IMG/VR virus record: IMGVR_UViG_3300042924_006012
Coordinates: 1-42,680 of that record
Reading direction: 5' to 3' (one strand)
DNA length: 42,680 nt
Source of the DNA: a virus
In this document: one piece after another, positions 1 through 37,106 of the stretch
Layout of the letters: the number at the start of each line of letters is the position of its first letter
Position numbering within the stretch: the stretch's first letter is position 1
Notes under the pieces: generated by a model
The model's input: only the letters and a program-made list of their open reading frames with translations
Databases searched by the model: none
Told to the model about the DNA's origin: nothing
Made by a program: the position numbers and the translations under genes

Positions 1-858
1 TACAATAATTTTTCCATCATCATAACCTAATCCGTTGATGTGATTCTTCATTACCGAAACTTTTGTTCTTGAAGCAAACTTAATAGTTCGTTTATCTTTA
101 GTTGCAGTAATCTTAGTTGTTCCAGCGCCTTTTTGGTTACCAAATAAATAAACCAATGATGAGTTTAACCAAATCGCCTCTCCACCTTTAGCTTTAATCT
201 TCGGTTGTCCAAAAGGATTATCCGGTAATTCAACCCATGGTTGATTAACAATAATCAAAGTGTTTTCGTATTTTGAATCAGACTTACGAGAACCCGAAAT
301 TCTTTGGTTAATACCCATTCCAATCTTATCCGCTAATGCAGATGCATTGTGTTGTTTACCACCTTTACCTTCATAAGTCATTTTACAAGGTACAGAACCT
401 ACTGAATCCCACATAAAACATAAACTATAATCTAAGTTTCCTTTTTCTTGTTCGTCTAATAAATTATTAATGTAATCAGTAATTTGTTCGATATAATTAA
501 AGTTATTATTAAAGATGTAAAATCCATCCCAATCTAATTCACCTGTTTCTTCATCAACAACTTCCTGACAATCAAACCCCATTAACTTAGCGTGTTCAAA
601 CGACCATTTTTGTTCGGTAATAATAAAGACAGGTAAAATACCTTTTTTTTGTGCATCAACAGCAGTTTTTACAAGTGCTGTTGTTTTACCCGTATCCGAG
701 TGACCCAAGAACATATTAAGATGTCCAATCGCAGGTCCGGGTAATCCAACCGCATCCAAGAAGTCCGGACCTAAGTCAAAAAATCTTTGTGGTTTGTATT
801 TTGCCGATACCGAGAATTTATCTTTAATTGATTTGAAATCGTTTTTCTTAATCGCCAT
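1..858 (-). CDS. uvsX: UvsX/RecA-like recombinase (3' end outside window)
   Basis: The start codon is at 856-858 and the frame stays open for 286 codons to the window edge, so the C-terminus is missing. By family, this protein would form filaments on single-stranded DNA and drive strand exchange in recombination-dependent replication and repair. What is seen: a Walker A box GHSDTGKTT at about residues 52-60, a Walker B-like strand ending FMWDSVGS at about residues 155-162, and a following segment INQRISGSR, in the order found in RecA/UvsX cores. There is no long N-terminal extension before the ATPase core. It starts 11 bases inside the end of the preceding small gene, so the two are probably translationally coupled, and gp32-like protein lies just upstream in the same direction. 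T4 UvsX and gp32 work together, which supports the call. Cellular-type RecA is the alternative; the RecA/UvsX fold itself is secure. Confidence 0.88.
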   Translation of the reverse strand, partial: MAIKKNDFKSIKDKFSVSAKYKPQRFFDLGPDFLDAVGLPGPAIGHLNMFLGHSDTGKTTALVKTAVDAQKKGILPVFIITEQKWSFEHAKLMGFDCQEVVDEETGELDWDGFYIFNNNFNYIEQITDYINNLLDEQEKGNLDYSLCFMWDSVGSVPCKMTYEGKGGKQHNASALADKIGMGINQRISGSRKSDSKYENTLIIVNQPWVELPDNPFGQPKIKAKGGEAIWLNSSLVYLFGNQKGAGTTKITATKDKRTIKFASRTKVSVMKNHINGLGYDDGKIIV

Positions 859-25111: not shown

Positions 25112-25651
25112 TTATTTCTTAACTACAAATAATTTATTTTGTGAATTTATCATATCTACTTCAGTGGCACTATAAATTGGTTCTCCACTTGATTTGTAAA
25201 CAAATGAATCATACTTGTATGGGTTATAGGTAATAATCATATCTGATGACGGGTCCGGAATATTATCACAAGGATATTCACAGAAATCCATTAAATCACC
25301 AATAACAAACGCATGGACATTCTTTGATTTTTCTGAACGAACTCTGTCTTTTCCACCTTTTCTAACTCTAAACTCAACATCCCCTAATTTAACATAATCA
25401 GCGTGCATTATAACTTTAGATTTATATGTTACTGAAAAAGTATGTTTGTGAAGGTTATAATAAACCATAACTCTTTTTCCAATATGACTTTCTTCTGAGT
25501 TATCGTGTCCACATTTATGACAAATGTATGGGTCGTCACCACCATCGGCTAAATCCCATGACCAACCACACTCATCACAAATTACTTTATCTTTTGTGAC
25601 AATTTCAAATATTCTTCTTAATTGAGATTCTTTAACTAATACTTTCATCAC
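25112..25651 (-). CDS. Zinc-ribbon protein of unknown function with KES N-terminal motif
   Basis: A 179-residue protein. A zinc ribbon is visible at residues 25-47: C25-x2-C28 in VICDECGWSW and C44-x2-C47 in YICHKCGHDN. The rest is mostly beta structure (GKRVMVYYNLHKHTFSVTYK; VKLGDVEFRVRKGGKDRVR) and includes CEYPCDN. The N-terminus MMKVLVKESQLRRIF resembles the starts of the two paralogues upstream. Zinc ribbons of this kind often bind nucleic acid or another protein, but no known family is assigned. It is one base from the gp15-like gene and overlaps the preceding gene by one base, so it is part of a coupled cluster of small and neck-like proteins. A structural or DNA-modifying partner role is possible; both are inferences. 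Confidence 0.7.
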   Translation of the reverse strand: MMKVLVKESQLRRIFEIVTKDKVICDECGWSWDLADGGDDPYICHKCGHDNSEESHIGKRVMVYYNLHKHTFSVTYKSKVIMHADYVKLGDVEFRVRKGGKDRVRSEKSKNVHAFVIGDLMDFCEYPCDNIPDPSSDMIITYNPYKYDSFVYKSSGEPIYSATEVDMINSQNKLFVVKK

Positions 25652-26052
25652 TAATAATGCGTTGATACCGATTTAACCGGTAATTTAAAATTATCTTGAA
25701 CCCATTTTTTCATAGGTTCGACCCAATGGTCATCAAACATAGTGTCTAAATGCTCACCATATTTACCCATAACTTCTAATATTGGCGCTTGATTTCTAAA
25801 CGATTTAGTTGACGGTCCATTTTCATAATAATCCACATCAAAATAATAAAAAACTATGTCAGTATCATCTTCCCCATTCCATTCACCTTTAAAGAACATT
25901 AAAAAATTTTCATCATCCTTATCAATATCCTCATAACCATCTTCGTCAGAACCAATCCCATAAACCCAATCAATTTCGTTTGGGTTTAGATAACTATCAA
26001 GATACTGATAGATTGCGTTAAATAATTTACTCTCTTTTATTACATATTCCAT
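25651..26052 (-). CDS. Small acidic protein, tandem paralogue B
   Basis: A 133-residue acidic protein. The first 17 residues, MEYVIKESKLFNAIYQY, are identical to those of the next gene upstream, and the C-terminal part is similar (PILEVMGKYGEHLDTMFDDH with WVEPMKKWVQDNFKLPVKSV). The two are therefore recent tandem duplicates that have diverged in the middle, where both are rich in Asp/Glu (DDENFLMFFKGEWNGEDDTD). No known family is recognised and there is no cysteine or membrane segment. It overlaps both neighbours by one base (TAATG), so it is translated in step with them. Confidence 0.75.
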   Translation of the reverse strand: MEYVIKESKLFNAIYQYLDSYLNPNEIDWVYGIGSDEDGYEDIDKDDENFLMFFKGEWNGEDDTDIVFYYFDVDYYENGPSTKSFRNQAPILEVMGKYGEHLDTMFDDHWVEPMKKWVQDNFKLPVKSVSTHY

Positions 26053-26441
26053 TAATCAGCCACAATTGTTTTAACAGGTAATTTAAATTTATTTTTAAAC
26101 CATTTTTTAAAAGGTTCTTTCCAATACTCCCCAAACATTGATTCTAACGTTCCATAATCATTAACAATTAAAATTGGTGTTTGATTTATAAAAGATTTTC
26201 TTGAAGGTTCATCTTTATAATATTCTTTTACGATATAAACAAATAACATCCCATTTTCATCATAATCGCCATCATATTCTTTATTATAAAACTCGATAAT
26301 ATGTGGGTTTTCCGTGTCTTTCTCCCCGTCTTCATCATATGTTTCCGGATTGAAAAAATCAATTTTATCCACATCATAAGACCCATCAATATACTGATAG
26401 ATTGCGTTAAATAATTTACTCTCTTTTATTACGTATTCCAT
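26052..26441 (-). CDS. Small acidic protein, tandem paralogue A
   Basis: A 129-residue paralogue of the following gene, sharing the N-terminal MEYVIKESKLFNAIYQY exactly and the C-terminal pattern PILIVNDYGTLESMFGEYWK with EPFKKWFKNKFKLPVKTI. The middle is acidic and low in similarity. Function unknown. The N-terminal 'VIKES' stretch also occurs in the zinc-ribbon protein two genes downstream. TAATG overlaps on both sides show translational coupling with the neck-like 170-residue gene and with paralogue B. Confidence 0.75.
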   Translation of the reverse strand: MEYVIKESKLFNAIYQYIDGSYDVDKIDFFNPETYDEDGEKDTENPHIIEFYNKEYDGDYDENGMLFVYIVKEYYKDEPSRKSFINQTPILIVNDYGTLESMFGEYWKEPFKKWFKNKFKLPVKTIVAD

Positions 26442-26953
26442 TAGATTCCTCTAAATTCATTTTCACTTACATAAGTGGCAACAATACTTCTGTAGAATGG
26501 TTTATATCCACCATACGTATGTTTATTATCTGACCTAACATATCCGTCATCACTTACCACATAATATCTAACTCTATCTTCTGTTTCATAATATCCAAGA
26601 TAATCCCCTTGGAATATCTCAACACCCAATTCATCAAGAGTTTTCTGATACAATGAGAATTTCATATTACCAGGTTCTTGTAATTCAACTCGTGAGTTTC
26701 CATAGTTTTTAGAACTTGGTGCCATTACTTGAACCAAACCTTGCAATTCAACAGGTGCCATGAATTGGATACCATCTTCGGTTACCTCACCATAAACATC
26801 GTCGGTTTTAGTCTTATATCTATCAATACGATAAAGAATCACGGTGAAATTCATATCACCCAATAACCATTCTTCTCCCATACCTATGTCGAGAGCGTAA
26901 TCTTCGGCTCCGAAGAATTTACCTAATCTTGTAATTGGAACTAATTTTTGCAT
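26441..26953 (-). CDS. Neck/head-tail connector-like structural protein (possibly gp14-like)
   Basis: A 170-residue protein at the head of the minus-strand cluster that ends with the gp15-like gene. It contains VILYRIDRYKTKTDDVYGEV followed by VELQGLVQVMAPSSKNYGNS, then GNMKFSLYQKTLDELGVEIF and QGDYLGYYETEDRVRYYVVS. The order (a Tyr-rich strand, a loop, a helix-rich middle, then 'GDY..YYETE..VRYYVV' strands) is like T4 gp14 and related neck proteins, where a 'GDLIY' strand occurs at the same place. The match is at pattern level only. It is the first gene of a coupled set and lies opposite the SET-domain gene, with 42 bases between the two starts. It may instead be a head-completion protein. 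Confidence 0.5.
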   Translation of the reverse strand: MQKLVPITRLGKFFGAEDYALDIGMGEEWLLGDMNFTVILYRIDRYKTKTDDVYGEVTEDGIQFMAPVELQGLVQVMAPSSKNYGNSRVELQEPGNMKFSLYQKTLDELGVEIFQGDYLGYYETEDRVRYYVVSDDGYVRSDNKHTYGGYKPFYRSIVATYVSENEFRGI

Positions 26954-26958
26954 ATATT

Positions 26959-26966
26959 GATAAATA
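26959..26966. promoter_or_regulatory. TATTTATC / GATAAATA element in a divergent start region
   Basis: The 42-base gap between divergent starts holds AGTATTTATC on the minus strand (GATAAATACT on the plus). It is only 5 bases from the minus-strand start but 29 bases upstream of the plus-strand SET gene start, so the direction it serves is unclear. Confidence 0.3.
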
Positions 26967-26995
26967 CTTCAATATCAACTATATTTAATTCAACT

Positions 26996-27364
26996 ATGAA
27001 AATCAGTCCGCCAACTAAAATATATCTTAAAGATAGTCCATTACATAACTTGGGTGTTTTTTCTTCACATAAAATAAAAAAAGGTGAGGTTATTGATATT
27101 TGCCCCTTTCTTTCTTTTCCACAAAGTTCTAAAGAAAAAATACCGGTATTTTCAAACTATACCTTTTGTTACCCTCGTTCTAATAATTGGACTACACACG
27201 CATTGGTCTTAGGTTATGGGTCTTATTATAACCATTCCAAAACACCAAATGTTGATTGGTATACAAATGAAGAAGACCAAACATTTGTATATTTCGCAAT
27301 AAATAATATTAATAAAGATGAAGAATTATTAATAAACTATGGTAATGGGTCTTTATTTGAGTAA
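26996..27364 (+). CDS. SET-domain protein (lysine methyltransferase-like)
   Basis: A 122-residue protein with the compact SET core. Seen: GVFSSHKIKKGEVI at residues 20-33 (the usual G-x-G-like entry strand), YNHSKTPN at 78-85 (the NHS motif that contacts S-adenosylmethionine), FAINNINKDEELLINYG at 100-116 (the final strand with the Tyr of the active site). Known SET proteins transfer methyl groups to lysine, often on histones or ribosomal proteins; the phage substrate is unknown. An in-frame ATG exists 48 bases upstream at 26948, but it would run through the divergent start of the 170-residue gene, so 26996 is preferred. The stop overlaps the start of the SNF2 gene by one base (TAATG), so the two are coupled. 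The cysteines usual in post-SET regions are absent. Confidence 0.82.
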   Translation: MKISPPTKIYLKDSPLHNLGVFSSHKIKKGEVIDICPFLSFPQSSKEKIPVFSNYTFCYPRSNNWTTHALVLGYGSYYNHSKTPNVDWYTNEEDQTFVYFAINNINKDEELLINYGNGSLFE

Positions 27365-29121: not shown

Positions 29122-29134
29122 ACCAATTTTCGAT

Positions 29135-29142
29135 TATTTATA
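29135..29142 (+). promoter_or_regulatory. TATTTATA candidate promoter element
   Basis: TATTTATA lies 21 bases before the start of the SOD-fusion gene, in the 42-base gap after the SNF2 gene, on the coding strand as at the other sites. Confidence 0.4.
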
Positions 29143-29163
29143 TGTAATGGTTAATCCAAACAT

Positions 29164-30696
29164 ATGAAAAAAATACAACAAAAAATTAAAGAGTTAGAAA
29201 CAGTAATCCTTGGAAATCACGTATTAAAGGAACAAAGATTGTTAATAACAGAAATGAAGAAAATTGGAATAGAAAAACTTCCTTATTCTTACTCAGCCTT
29301 GAAACAATTCATCGACCCCGAAACGATGGAATTTCACTACAACAAACATTACAAGGGATACGTGGATAAATTGAATGATGCTCTTTCAAAGAAAAAATAC
29401 GGGGATTTAGAGTTAATTCAAATAATTAAAACAATTGATAGATTTGATAAGACAATTCGAAATAATGCCGGTGGCGCTTTTAACCACGCATTGTTTTGGA
29501 ATATGTTATCTCCAAAACCAACAAAACTTAAAGGAGAACTTTATAACAAAATTATTAAACAATATGGTAGTTTTCCAACATTCAAAAAAGAATTTGAAAA
29601 AATAGCTAAAGAACGTTTTGGTTCAGGATGGGTATGGTTAATAGTTACCTCAAGAAATACTTTAAAAATAATGTCGACCCCTAATCAAGATAACCCATTA
29701 ATGAATGTTATTGAAGGTGGTGGGTTTCCAATCTTAGGATTAGATTTATGGGAACACGCATATTATCTTAAGTATAGAAACAAACGAGATGAATATATTG
29801 CAAATTTTTGGAAAGTTGTGAATTGGGATTTTGTTTCTAAATTATATGACATGAAAGTTGAAACAAAACTTCTTGAGACAAATAAAATGAAAGAGATACT
29901 AAGTGAAGGAAAATCAGAAATGTGTTCATCATCTGAAAATGAATTTTATAGAACTTTATTCAATACTAATCAAGATGTTAAATGGATTTACATGAATGGT
30001 ATCAATAAAATTATGAGAGAAGTTTTTTCTGAAAATTTTGTTGAAAATCCCGGTAATAACCAAATGTCAGGTGTTTATGAGTTAGAAGGACCGGGTCGGT
30101 CAGTAATCAATAAATTAAATACAAATTACACATCATTCTGTATTTTATTAAATGATGTAAATCAAGTTATTAAAAAATTAACAAAAAAACCACCAATTGA
30201 TTTTAGAAATAAGAATACAGAAGAACAAAAGAAAGAGGCTTCAAGATTTATTTCGGCAATTAATCATTATAAATTTCAAATATTTAATCGAGAAAGTTCA
30301 ACATTTCAAAACCTATTAAGGGTTTTAATTGAAAAGAATGCCGCAGGTTCAAAACGTGAAGAAATAACTGCATCAATATTGAGAAGATATTTTGGTAAAG
30401 GGGTTAAGGTTGAAATTGTTGGAGAACTTGGAAGTAAAAAAGACGCAATTAGCGGTGTTGATATTGAAATAACCAAAGATGGGGTCACTAAAACAGCACA
30501 AGTAAAACCTTTTAGAGAGAAAAAAATAACCGATAATGGTATTTTGTTGGAAGGAACCGCAAGTGTTAAAATTTATAAAACAGATTTAATGATATTTCAA
30601 AAAGGAAAAAATGTTTTAGTTTTCAATGAAAAACCAATAATTGTTAATGGTAATTTTTTATTCCCATTAGATTCGTTATTGTATGACATACAATAA
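29164..30696 (+). CDS. Superoxide dismutase fused to a PD-(D/E)xK nuclease-like domain
   Basis: A 510-residue fusion. Residues about 38-228 are a complete Fe/Mn superoxide dismutase, converting superoxide to peroxide and oxygen: metal ligands H58 (EFHYNKHYKGYV), H108 (FNHALFWN), D194 and H198 (LGLDLWEHAYYLKYRN). Q175 in NQDNPLM and the GG before FNH fit the Mn or cambialistic type. Residues 1-37 are a helical extension, and 229-255 a linker. The C-terminal ~255 residues are helical (NYTSFCILLNDVNQVIKKL; HYKFQIFNRESSTFQNLLRV), then a beta core with GVDIEI (D433) and TAQVKPF (Q446-x-K448). That is the D...QxK pattern of Mrr-type PD-(D/E)xK nucleases. A TATTTATA element lies 21 bases upstream. 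The SOD call is very strong; the nuclease call rests on short motifs. Confidence 0.85.
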   Translation: MKKIQQKIKELETVILGNHVLKEQRLLITEMKKIGIEKLPYSYSALKQFIDPETMEFHYNKHYKGYVDKLNDALSKKKYGDLELIQIIKTIDRFDKTIRNNAGGAFNHALFWNMLSPKPTKLKGELYNKIIKQYGSFPTFKKEFEKIAKERFGSGWVWLIVTSRNTLKIMSTPNQDNPLMNVIEGGGFPILGLDLWEHAYYLKYRNKRDEYIANFWKVVNWDFVSKLYDMKVETKLLETNKMKEILSEGKSEMCSSSENEFYRTLFNTNQDVKWIYMNGINKIMREVFSENFVENPGNNQMSGVYELEGPGRSVINKLNTNYTSFCILLNDVNQVIKKLTKKPPIDFRNKNTEEQKKEASRFISAINHYKFQIFNRESSTFQNLLRVLIEKNAAGSKREEITASILRRYFGKGVKVEIVGELGSKKDAISGVDIEITKDGVTKTAQVKPFREKKITDNGILLEGTASVKIYKTDLMIFQKGKNVLVFNEKPIIVNGNFLFPLDSLLYDIQ

Positions 30697-30719: not shown

Positions 30720-31847
30720 ATGGCAGTTATACCGGAACCAGAAAGAAGTAAAATTTATACGAGAGTCAAACATCAATTAGGTGCGCCACTGAGAAGTGTT
30801 GAACTTGAAGATGAAATGATGGACTCGTTAATGGAATTATCTATTGGAGACTATGAGGAATACGTTCTTCAATGGTTAATAGATAGTCAATGGGTTAATT
30901 TAGTTAACCTAAACATGAATGAGAAATCAGTTGCAAAGGCGTTGATTACTCGAACAATGGACTTTGAACAACAATTTAGTTATTCGTACTCAAAAATTGT
31001 AGGCCTTCAAACAGAAGGCCCATGGGTTTTGAAAAAAGATTATTTTGTTTTAAGTGCAAATACTCAAACATACGAAATACCTGCAGGTCGTGAGGTTAAT
31101 GAATTATTATGGTTTAGTGATAGACCATGGAATGCATTTGGATTAGGGGCTTCTGCCGGTGGATTTGGTGCTGGTTTGGGTCTTGGTGCTAATGAAGCAG
31201 GATTTGCCCAATTAGGTAATGCAGGTTCTTATTTTATGATGTCAGGGTTTGATTATTTAGTGAGAATGCAAGAGGCAAATGTTTTGAGTAGAATTTTAGG
31301 AGGTTCACTTACCTATAGAATTACCGGATTACCTGATGGTAAGAAAAATATTCATTTATACAATACACCGGGAGGAAGATTTAATTGGAATAATATTAAC
31401 GGTTATGTGGGTAAAGCGGTGTGGTATTGGTATTATGATGTATCACCTGATAATAGAGCGGATTGTTTAAAAAATAATCCTGATGTTATTAAATTACCTT
31501 CGGATGTTCCAATGGATAATTTATCTTGGGAAGATTTAAACATACCGGGTCAACAATGGGTTAGAAGATGGTTCACCGCGTATTGCAAAGAAACGTTGGC
31601 AAGAGTTAGAGGAAAATATAGTGGTAATCTTAAAACACCTGATAGTGAATTAACTATGGACTATACATCTTTATTAACTGAATCAAAAGATGAAAAAACT
31701 AAATTAATTGAAGAATTAACAGGTGCTGAAGGATGGTTAACAAGATTAAGACCAGAAAAAGTGATGGAACGAGAGGCATTAATTGCGGAAAACTTAAACA
31801 AACAAATGAAATTTAGGGCAATGCCTCGACAAATATACGTAATATAA
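30720..31847 (+). CDS. Neck/head-tail connector-like structural protein (possibly gp13-like)
   Basis: A 375-residue protein. The N-terminus (IPEPERSKIYTRVKHQLGAP then ELEDEMMDSLMELSIGDYEE) is helical and the end contains AYCKETLARVRGKYSGNLKT with MDYTSLLTESKDEKTKLIEE. 'LARVRGKYSG' followed by an acidic helix is a pattern I associate with neck proteins of the T4 gp13 kind. Residues about 138-172 are a striking Gly/Ala-rich loop (GLGASAGGFGAGLGLGANEA), which is unusual in a neck protein. The middle contains many Trp and Tyr. If it is gp13-like, it would normally lie next to the gp14-like gene, but here a plus-strand block with SET, SNF2 and SOD lies between them and the strand has changed. The structural role is likely, the exact counterpart is not settled. 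Confidence 0.6.
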   Translation: MAVIPEPERSKIYTRVKHQLGAPLRSVELEDEMMDSLMELSIGDYEEYVLQWLIDSQWVNLVNLNMNEKSVAKALITRTMDFEQQFSYSYSKIVGLQTEGPWVLKKDYFVLSANTQTYEIPAGREVNELLWFSDRPWNAFGLGASAGGFGAGLGLGANEAGFAQLGNAGSYFMMSGFDYLVRMQEANVLSRILGGSLTYRITGLPDGKKNIHLYNTPGGRFNWNNINGYVGKAVWYWYYDVSPDNRADCLKNNPDVIKLPSDVPMDNLSWEDLNIPGQQWVRRWFTAYCKETLARVRGKYSGNLKTPDSELTMDYTSLLTESKDEKTKLIEELTGAEGWLTRLRPEKVMEREALIAENLNKQMKFRAMPRQIYVI

Positions 31848-35432: not shown

Positions 35433-37106
35433 TTATGACTCTTTACGTAACTCTCCTTCGTAATGTTCGAATCTATCGTGTTCAGTTGGGGATAAAAGTA
35501 ATAAACCCGATGACAATTCTCCCTTTTTAGTTAATTGATACATATGACTCATCCATGTTTGTTCAAATGGATGTGCCCATGTTGTATCCAAAAACATTTT
35601 TTTATTTCCCGGTCTACTAACAATTTGAGGCCAGTTACAATAATAAACTTCACCGGAACCGTATGGTAAACCTTTGTGAGATAAAATTGATGAAAATTTA
35701 GTTTTTGGAGCGTTAGGGTCTAACCCAAGATGAGGTAATGTTGATTTTTCAGGCCAAAACTCTTCCCTAACTGATTGAGGTACATTATACCAAGACCATT
35801 GGGTTCCATTATCACCATAAAATTCAGAATAATTAAGTTTTAAAAAATCAAAATTTTCTTTTTTAATTATCTCTAATGATTTGGTATACAAATTTGGGAC
35901 ATATCTATTAAACCCATTTCGACAAACAGAACCTTCATTAGGGAAGAAAAACATATCGTCTTCAAAAAATAAATAATAATCTAAATCTGTCGTTTCAAAA
36001 TGTTCGGCAATCCATTGTCTACCACCACAAATTCCAAGATTTTCTTTTTTTATGTGTTCAAATCCGTGTTCTTGACATAATCTTAAGTATTCGTCAGTCG
36101 TTGATAAGTCAGTTGAATTATCCAACAAATATTTCTTTGTCTTTAATAAATAATCATTGTCATAAGTTTCAAATGATTTAATTAAAGTTTTAAATTGATT
36201 TGGACTATTAAATGTTAAAACATATAACCCCACTTTATTTGTGTCTAAATTATTTTCAACACTAACTTTAGATTCATTTTTTGGTATTAACTTATCATTT
36301 TTTAAATCTTCAAAAAACTTTCCAACCAATCCACTGTATTCAATTTCAAAGTAATTAATTAAATCAGAATGTTTATAAGCCATTATACTAAAAATTGATT
36401 CTTCAGTTCCCATATAACCTTCATCAAGGGTTGATTTTAACAATCCATAATAAATCCCATTAATATCAGTAATAGTATGTTTAGGACCTCCAAAAAACCC
36501 ACCACGAGATACTTTAGTTACTTTAGAACCGGCAATTGAATTTAATTTATTATACTCAAATCCGTGTATTTCATTCTCAGCTCCATATGGAAAACTAATA
36601 AATGAAAACTTTGAAATATATTTTGATAATTTATCAAGTACTTTATCATGAGTAAAATATCCAGGATGGACCGTGTTAGTTAAACCTCCGTCAATCCAAA
36701 ACAGATATTCTGAGTCAAACTTATCAAATATTTTAGCATCATGTAATAAAAATACTTTTGACATAACAAGAGGATTATAATTTTCTAATCTTGCTTGTGT
36801 TGATTGTTCTAACCACCCAACTTGACTGTACCAATTTGGATTAGTTCGAATGTTTTGAATTAATGGATAAAATTCAGAATTTGTAAACCAATCTAACGGC
36901 CTTTCAATAAACTGAGTATTTGATTCATTTCTTTTTCTAAAAACAAATTCTCTAAGACTTTCATCTCCAAAAATTATCATATTCTCCTGAACATCTAAAA
37001 GTTGTTCAAATTTATCTAAATAATGTTGGTATGACCTTGACCACCCTTCGGTTAATTCTCCTCTACCAATATCCCATATTCCTGTTACTAATGTTATATT
37101 ACTCAT
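35433..37106 (-). CDS. Two-domain glycosyltransferase: HtrL/YibB-like plus GT-A domain
   Basis: A 557-residue protein. The N-terminal ~275 residues start ITLVTGIWDIGRGELTEGW, have LFWIDGGLTN (D139) and RGGFFGGPKH, a layout like the HtrL/YibB (WlaTC-type) family found in surface polysaccharide clusters. Residues about 290-557 are a separate GT-A glycosyltransferase: VGLYVLTFNSPNQFKTLIKS, LGICGGRQWIAEHF and the metal-binding YYLFFEDDMFFFP (EDD at 382-384). It would add a sugar from a nucleotide-sugar donor to an unknown acceptor, and the N-terminal domain may add a second. No signal peptide or membrane segment is seen, so it acts in the cytoplasm. Its start overlaps the previous gene by 4 bases. 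The fusion of the two modules is uncommon to my knowledge. Confidence 0.78.
   Translation of the reverse strand: MSNITLVTGIWDIGRGELTEGWSRSYQHYLDKFEQLLDVQENMIIFGDESLREFVFRKRNESNTQFIERPLDWFTNSEFYPLIQNIRTNPNWYSQVGWLEQSTQARLENYNPLVMSKVFLLHDAKIFDKFDSEYLFWIDGGLTNTVHPGYFTHDKVLDKLSKYISKFSFISFPYGAENEIHGFEYNKLNSIAGSKVTKVSRGGFFGGPKHTITDINGIYYGLLKSTLDEGYMGTEESIFSIMAYKHSDLINYFEIEYSGLVGKFFEDLKNDKLIPKNESKVSVENNLDTNKVGLYVLTFNSPNQFKTLIKSFETYDNDYLLKTKKYLLDNSTDLSTTDEYLRLCQEHGFEHIKKENLGICGGRQWIAEHFETTDLDYYLFFEDDMFFFPNEGSVCRNGFNRYVPNLYTKSLEIIKKENFDFLKLNYSEFYGDNGTQWSWYNVPQSVREEFWPEKSTLPHLGLDPNAPKTKFSSILSHKGLPYGSGEVYYCNWPQIVSRPGNKKMFLDTTWAHPFEQTWMSHMYQLTKKGELSSGLLLLSPTEHDRFEHYEGELRKES

Follow-up and report, generated by a model that had tools for sequence, protein, structure and literature searches.

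Why should a phage make a superoxide dismutase (SOD) and a nuclease-like domain as one polypeptide, and do the two parts stay together? The question is raised by a gene in a viral DNA stretch of 42,680 nucleotides (IMG/VR record IMGVR_UViG_3300042924_006012; hereafter, the window) that also encodes a tail sheath, a tail tube, a baseplate and a DNA polymerase. Frame translation of the gene reveals no internal stop (Table 1). A pattern scan of IMG/VR with the fusion returned at least 598 related stretches. The joined frame, which the original prediction expected to be absent from related genomes if two genes had been fused by an assembly or sequencing error, turned out to be present in all 80 loci kept as the best of these matches, at 70–99% identity and on many independent contigs, with the same neighbouring genes at the inspected loci. 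Such an artefact is thus rejected as having practically no likelihood. All SOD ligands and nuclease motif residues are kept in 57 distinct full-length fused proteins with identity down to 65%, and a further IMG/VR comparison showed that still more divergent fusions are also present.

Table 1. The SOD-nuclease gene and its flanks. Positions refer to the window; a slash marks the candidate cut.
Feature	Residues	Position	Strand	Basis or remark
Inverted repeat enclosing TATTTATA (29135-29142)		29131-29157	+	directly ahead of the fusion start codon
SOD-nuclease fusion gene P0001	1-510	29164-30696	+	510 aa, ATG start
N-terminal extension	1-30	29164-29253	+	variable in sequence and length, predicted helix
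ITE/M, candidate prohead-protease site 1	28-30	29245-29253	+	[LI]xE in all fused members
Fe/Mn superoxide dismutase domain	31-229	29254-29850	+	Pfam PF00081, PF02777
Linker	230-248	29851-29907	+	contains LLE/T (236-238) and LSE/G (246-248)
LLE/T and LSE/G, candidate prohead-protease sites 2 and 3	236-238, 246-248	linker		[LIV]xE in all fused members
PD-(D/E)xK nuclease-like domain	249-510	29908-30693	+	motif conservation, AF2 model, Foldseek
Helical part of the C-terminal domain	~256-385			
Core of the C-terminal domain	~386-510			
E399, motif glutamate, core helix	399	30358-30360	+	invariant, fused and stand-alone homologues
D433 of GxD	433	30460-30462	+	invariant
Q446 and K448 of TxQxK	446, 448	30499-30507	+	invariant
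Head-tail adaptor (neck)-like gene, next downstream		30720-31847	+	PHROG phrog_211, head-tail adaptor Ad2, 1.4e-8

The first half of the protein is as it had been predicted to be, a full Fe/Mn SOD. Pfam places Sod_Fe_N at residues 37–116 (3e-21) and Sod_Fe_C at 123–226 (2.5e-39), both far over the cut-off. The ligands H58, H108, D194 and H198, together with the second-shell or gateway residues H62 and Y66, are present in the window protein and in 57 of 57 distinct full-length fused homologues. The domain contains NNAGG and NQDNPLM, signatures of Mn-type enzymes. Judged from these features, a complete Mn-type member of the Fe/Mn SOD family is encoded, and it would be expected to act as a dismutase. 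The closest bacterial SODs are ~50% identical to the domain and come mostly from Bacteroidota; this suggests a host in that group, which the phage probably infects. The SodA-like Mn SODs of Bacteroidota are thus alike in the full domain, all ligands and the Mn-type signatures, whereas the phage protein has in addition a 30-residue N-terminal extension and the fused C-terminal domain. In Nei-Gojobori comparisons of the fused relatives, each against the window sequence, the SOD is the slowest-evolving segment, with a median dN/dS of 0.057, followed by the linker (0.14), the nuclease core (0.16), the helical middle (0.21) and the N-terminus (0.26), the fastest-changing segment. These low values indicate that purifying selection acts on both domains.

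The C-terminal half gave little in profile searches, by which the original prediction was to be checked: residues 230–510 alone have no Pfam, PHROG or NCBIfam match above threshold, the best Pfam entry being DUF6602 at a sub-threshold score. Sequence comparison with the PDB yielded no meaningful match, and a pattern scan of bacterial genomes found no homologues of the domain. Weak, partial PADLOC matches were set aside, as was a weak match to ABC-3C MC4 that did not recur in the members scanned again. The Mrr family, to which the domain had been assigned, finds no match in Pfam, NCBIfam or PADLOC. The broader assignment to PD-(D/E)xK nucleases is supported, the motif being intact and the modelled fold moderately similar. 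D433, Q446 and K448 had been picked correctly, and E399 is a further acidic motif residue. In an alignment of fused and stand-alone forms at ~20% identity, E399, G431, D433, T444, Q446 and K448 are invariant, and so is a K-x3-NYT-x-F block; the invariance of E399, D433, Q446 and K448 at such a distance speaks for catalysis. The fusion as such was also rightly recognised, while the border at residue 230 was imprecise: the SOD ends at ~229 and the nuclease probably begins at ~249.

The AlphaFold (AF2) model of residues 231–510 has a mean pLDDT of 89.9 and a fold that does not refute a nuclease. E399 is part of a long helix, D433 immediately precedes one strand, and Q446 and K448 are in the next strand; the four residues likely share one pocket. 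In a Foldseek search of the PDB, I-Ssp6803I comes first (E 2.5e-3, probability 1.0) and Hjc resolvases also rank high, the similarity of the PDB matches being moderate (TM ~0.4–0.5 of target). The phage domain has in common with I-Ssp6803I and archaeal Hjc the E...GxD...QxK motif and this structural similarity. It differs from them in an extra helical region (256–385) and in the lack of a clear helix after the third core strand, where an alpha-beta-beta-beta-alpha-beta core is expected. Taken together, motif and model support a PD-(D/E)xK nuclease-like domain that may cleave DNA.

Stand-alone relatives of the nuclease were found by tblastn in the huge metagenomic phages LR756501 and LR745206. 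Single-sequence queries with these two gave no further homologues, whereas alignment-based IMG/VR scans did. These proteins of large and huge phages (LR745206, LR756501, L084-L092 and L256) share the domain and its motif residues, but they have no SOD and are only ~20% identical to the domain of the fusion. The best viral structural match of the nuclease model is A0A6J5L953 (501 aa, TM 0.83), whose record is named ‘superoxide dismutase [uncultured Caudovirales phage]’. In view of this match, the protein probably represents the same fusion, entered in the database under an SOD name; no description of the fusion was found in the open-access literature searched. The next viral match, A0A8D9CCA0 (BFVD), is an uncharacterised marine phage protein of 1113 aa (TM 0.81 by query) in which the match spans nearly the entire nuclease model, and thus the nuclease may have another large partner. 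A SET-domain gene (Pfam) is situated one gene upstream of the fusion (26948-27364), and a SET-like gene, read by eye, lies directly beside the stand-alone nuclease of the 735-kb phage LR756501 (L082:4284-4721).

Whether the two domains remain joined can be addressed through short motifs at their borders. Of the [LI]xE motifs in 26 aligned fusions, just three are invariant, ITE 28–30, LLE 236–238 and LSE 246–248, and all of them fall in the N-terminal and linker segments, at domain borders. When invariant E columns were placed at random, three or more fell there in 0.1% of trials (P ~0.001; a post hoc permutation). The motif itself is weak, with eight [LI]xE occurrences in the fusion protein against seven expected by chance. 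At site 1 the P1 residue of fused members is always E, and P2 is T, S, A, N or L. In divergent fusions the N-terminus is unalignable and differs in sequence and length, yet it ends LINE/M, ILLE/M or ILTE/M. The linker sites of these fusions behave likewise: P3 is I, L or V and P1 is E, while P2 is any one of S, T, M, L, H and N. A conserved P3 and P1 with a changing P2 amid variable sequence is the pattern of a protease site, not of a structural segment. The original prediction saw in the fusion a possible link between redox state and DNA cutting; no coupling was found, and the invariant protease-like sites between the domains suggest that these are separated after synthesis.

The border sites resemble those at which gp21, the prohead protease of T4, cuts: head proteins are cleaved behind a short motif with a terminal glutamate, e.g., LIE (PMC9026906). 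A 182-kb contig (G001, locus L028) whose fusion is 77% identical encodes T4 gp21 (Peptidase_S77, 1.7e-23). Of five relatives' contigs, gp21 was found in this one only, and the other four may be fragments; gp21 lies outside the 42.7-kb window, itself a fragment. The gp23 of the 182-kb contig is of T4 type, its closest counterparts being those of an unannotated metagenomic phage, Microcystis phage Mel-JY01 and Flavobacterium phage immuto. At an aligned position that precedes the mature capsid region, gp23 reads LINE/A in the contig, VSE/A in immuto and ISE/A in Mel-JY01.

On the strength of its sequence and of the model, in which residues 2–32 form a helix, the N-terminal extension is proposed to be a capsid-targeting propeptide. 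A cut at ITE/M would leave M31, about the point at which free-standing SODs start, and so give back an SOD that begins close to its ancestral methionine. The P1' methionine of this site is unlike the A, S or G of the other candidate sites, and the proposed propeptide measures 30–45 residues against 10–20 for the capsid-targeting tags of T4. Similar short tags appear on most stand-alone nuclease homologues, which begin MKKFTEYIKE/S, MLNYKEYLKE/S, MIKKYSSYINE/S or MKWIKLNE/S; LR756501 and L256 have no obvious tag. ORFs beside the stand-alone nucleases begin in a similar way (MIKKYNQFVNE, MIKNWNQFINE). In the alignment, the tag end MLNYKEYLKE/S of a stand-alone nuclease falls on the linker site of the fusion; this suggests that an SOD gene was joined ahead of a tagged nuclease and then given its own tag. 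Within the first 38 residues of the ORFs of G001, [LI]xE with a permitted middle residue occurs in 27.5% as compared to 14.8% of control windows, an enrichment that is significant (p=5e-5) but only about twofold.

Many ORFs of this contig (L160-L169) and of L084-L092 have short starts that end in [LI]xE (MKVVITES, MDFLINES, MLLKFNNFIKES) or in something similar (MIKKYNQFVNE); judging by these starts, they could be further head-delivered proteins. Two adjoining paralogues in the window (25651-26052 and 26052-26441) both start MEYVIKESKLFNAIYQY, and their relatives in L254 and L255 start MEYIITESKLF or MEYIIKESKLF, possibly a further family with an [IL]xE tag.

Since sites like those of a head protease lie exactly between the parts, the virus head probably contains both enzymes. 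We lean, by a small measure, towards the fusion being a late, head-targeted polyprotein of a T4-like phage that is cut in the prohead into SOD and nuclease and delivered with the genome. That one gene provides protease-processed cargo, a head-targeted chain cut into SOD and nuclease that are both brought into the cell, seems to us a good possibility falling just short of probable. The fusion would be expressed late in infection, and its N-terminal helix of ~30 residues would target the chain to the prohead core. There, a gp21-type protease would cut behind ITE-30 and LSE-248 (and/or LLE-238) and free the Mn-type SOD and the PD-(D/E)xK nuclease, each of them whole, within the head. The two enzymes may then stay among the packaged DNA and be ejected together with the genome. 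The SOD would remove superoxide near the DNA, whether packaged or incoming; the nuclease would act in the newly infected cell on host, plasmid or rival phage DNA, or on branched DNA. In a head full of DNA, a working nuclease must be held in check; it might be silent there, perhaps for want of free metal. That staphylococcal nuclease packaged in T4 digests DNA only once calcium is added (PMC9026906) makes such silence possible.

T4 itself offers the nearest parallel. One of its internal proteins, IPI*, is a restriction inhibitor. The internal proteins and Alt, which carry capsid targeting sequences and are processed by gp21, have in common with the fusion a short N-terminal segment with a gp21-like [LI]xE at its end, and gp21 is encoded in a relative of the window. 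In contrast to them, SOD and nuclease share one chain here, with internal sites and a predicted location in the virion. The T4 system also shows that foreign nucleases can be packaged: the N-terminal 10 residues of IPIII suffice to bring foreign proteins into the head, where fusions of IPIII to staphylococcal nuclease and to EcoRI are packaged, the former being processed as well (PMC9026906, PMC3012670).

The surroundings of the gene speak for head delivery in that it adjoins a neck-protein gene and carries a TATTTATA element seen before structural ORFs. At the inspected loci the kept gene order is helicase, SOD-nuclease, neck-like protein, a 111-aa protein and, on the opposite strand, DNA polymerase. 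One locus has an extra 530-aa gene (MKNIISISESEKKN...) between the helicase and SOD-nuclease genes (L079:1967-3556). Of 41 distinct sequences ahead of the fusion, nearly all contain an inverted repeat; in relatives it reads GGATTAT...ATAATCC around TATTTATA and in most ends ~6 nt 5' of the start codon, with one relative having the arms GGGTTATTT/GAATAATCC. The repeat of the window is weaker than theirs and folds differently from their hairpin. Of the 184 ORFs of the G001 contig, 29 have sense-strand TATTTATA ahead of them and 7 have TATAAATA. TATTTATA is often <20 nt from the start codon, and late or structural ORFs such as those for the portal and the tail tube are included. A T4 late promoter in the usual orientation was rejected, as TATAAATA is not enriched before the ORFs of this contig. 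Elsewhere in the window, a block that includes a glycosyltransferase gene also encodes a 557-aa protein (35433-37106), in which an HtrL_YibB domain precedes a weak glucosyltransferase-like match.

Every SOD-bearing family member examined has the two domains joined, the gene lies between those for a DNA helicase and a neck protein, and the fold is closest to Hjc and I-Ssp6803I. All this would also suit a bifunctional enzyme that stays joined in the cytoplasm, in which the resolvase-like domain binds or processes phage DNA (e.g., branched DNA before packaging), the SOD is kept near this DNA and limits superoxide damage, and the [LI]xE sites are incidental. Freshwater phages are indeed reported to have SODs among their genes for ROS defence (PMC6802176). 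We regard a cytoplasmic role as rather unlikely, as it leaves unexplained both the conservation of [LI]xE at the borders amid changing sequence and the tags on stand-alone homologues.

The same head-targeting evidence, and the very low dN/dS of the SOD, would agree with a virion cargo in which the SOD is what matters and the C-terminal domain, with little or no catalysis, serves mainly as a DNA-binding or packaging anchor; a genome-bound SOD would then guard the head against extracellular oxidative damage. This appears improbable in the light of the four motif residues kept at ~20% identity, which point to catalysis, and of nuclease domains that occur without an SOD. Those SOD-free nucleases weigh equally against a redox-gated enzyme, in which superoxide, or the peroxide made by the SOD, would switch DNA cutting on or off. 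The joining of the two domains would fit such a gate, and a cysteine just past the linker (motif SxxC) is kept in aligned fused members; however, no coupling element between the active sites was found and the protease-like sites would part the domains, so that a gate of this kind is very doubtful.

On the likeliest reading, the fusion is a head-delivered polyprotein, a new arrangement built from known kinds of parts. Phage SODs are usually taken as metabolic helpers made during infection. Those of freshwater phages (PMC6802176) and A0A6J5L953 are likewise phage-encoded, but the text of that paper describes its SODs only as ROS defence, with neither a fused nuclease nor virion targeting. If the SOD is indeed in the particle, phages would bring antioxidant protection into the cell or guard their own DNA in sunlit water. 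A head-delivered nuclease, if confirmed, would begin its action on host, plasmid or rival DNA in the first minutes. The fusion is carried by a common aquatic T4-like phage, and relatives of its nuclease turn up in many phages of aquatic origin, huge ones included. In general, the tags and sites described here offer a way to predict other head-delivered enzymes.
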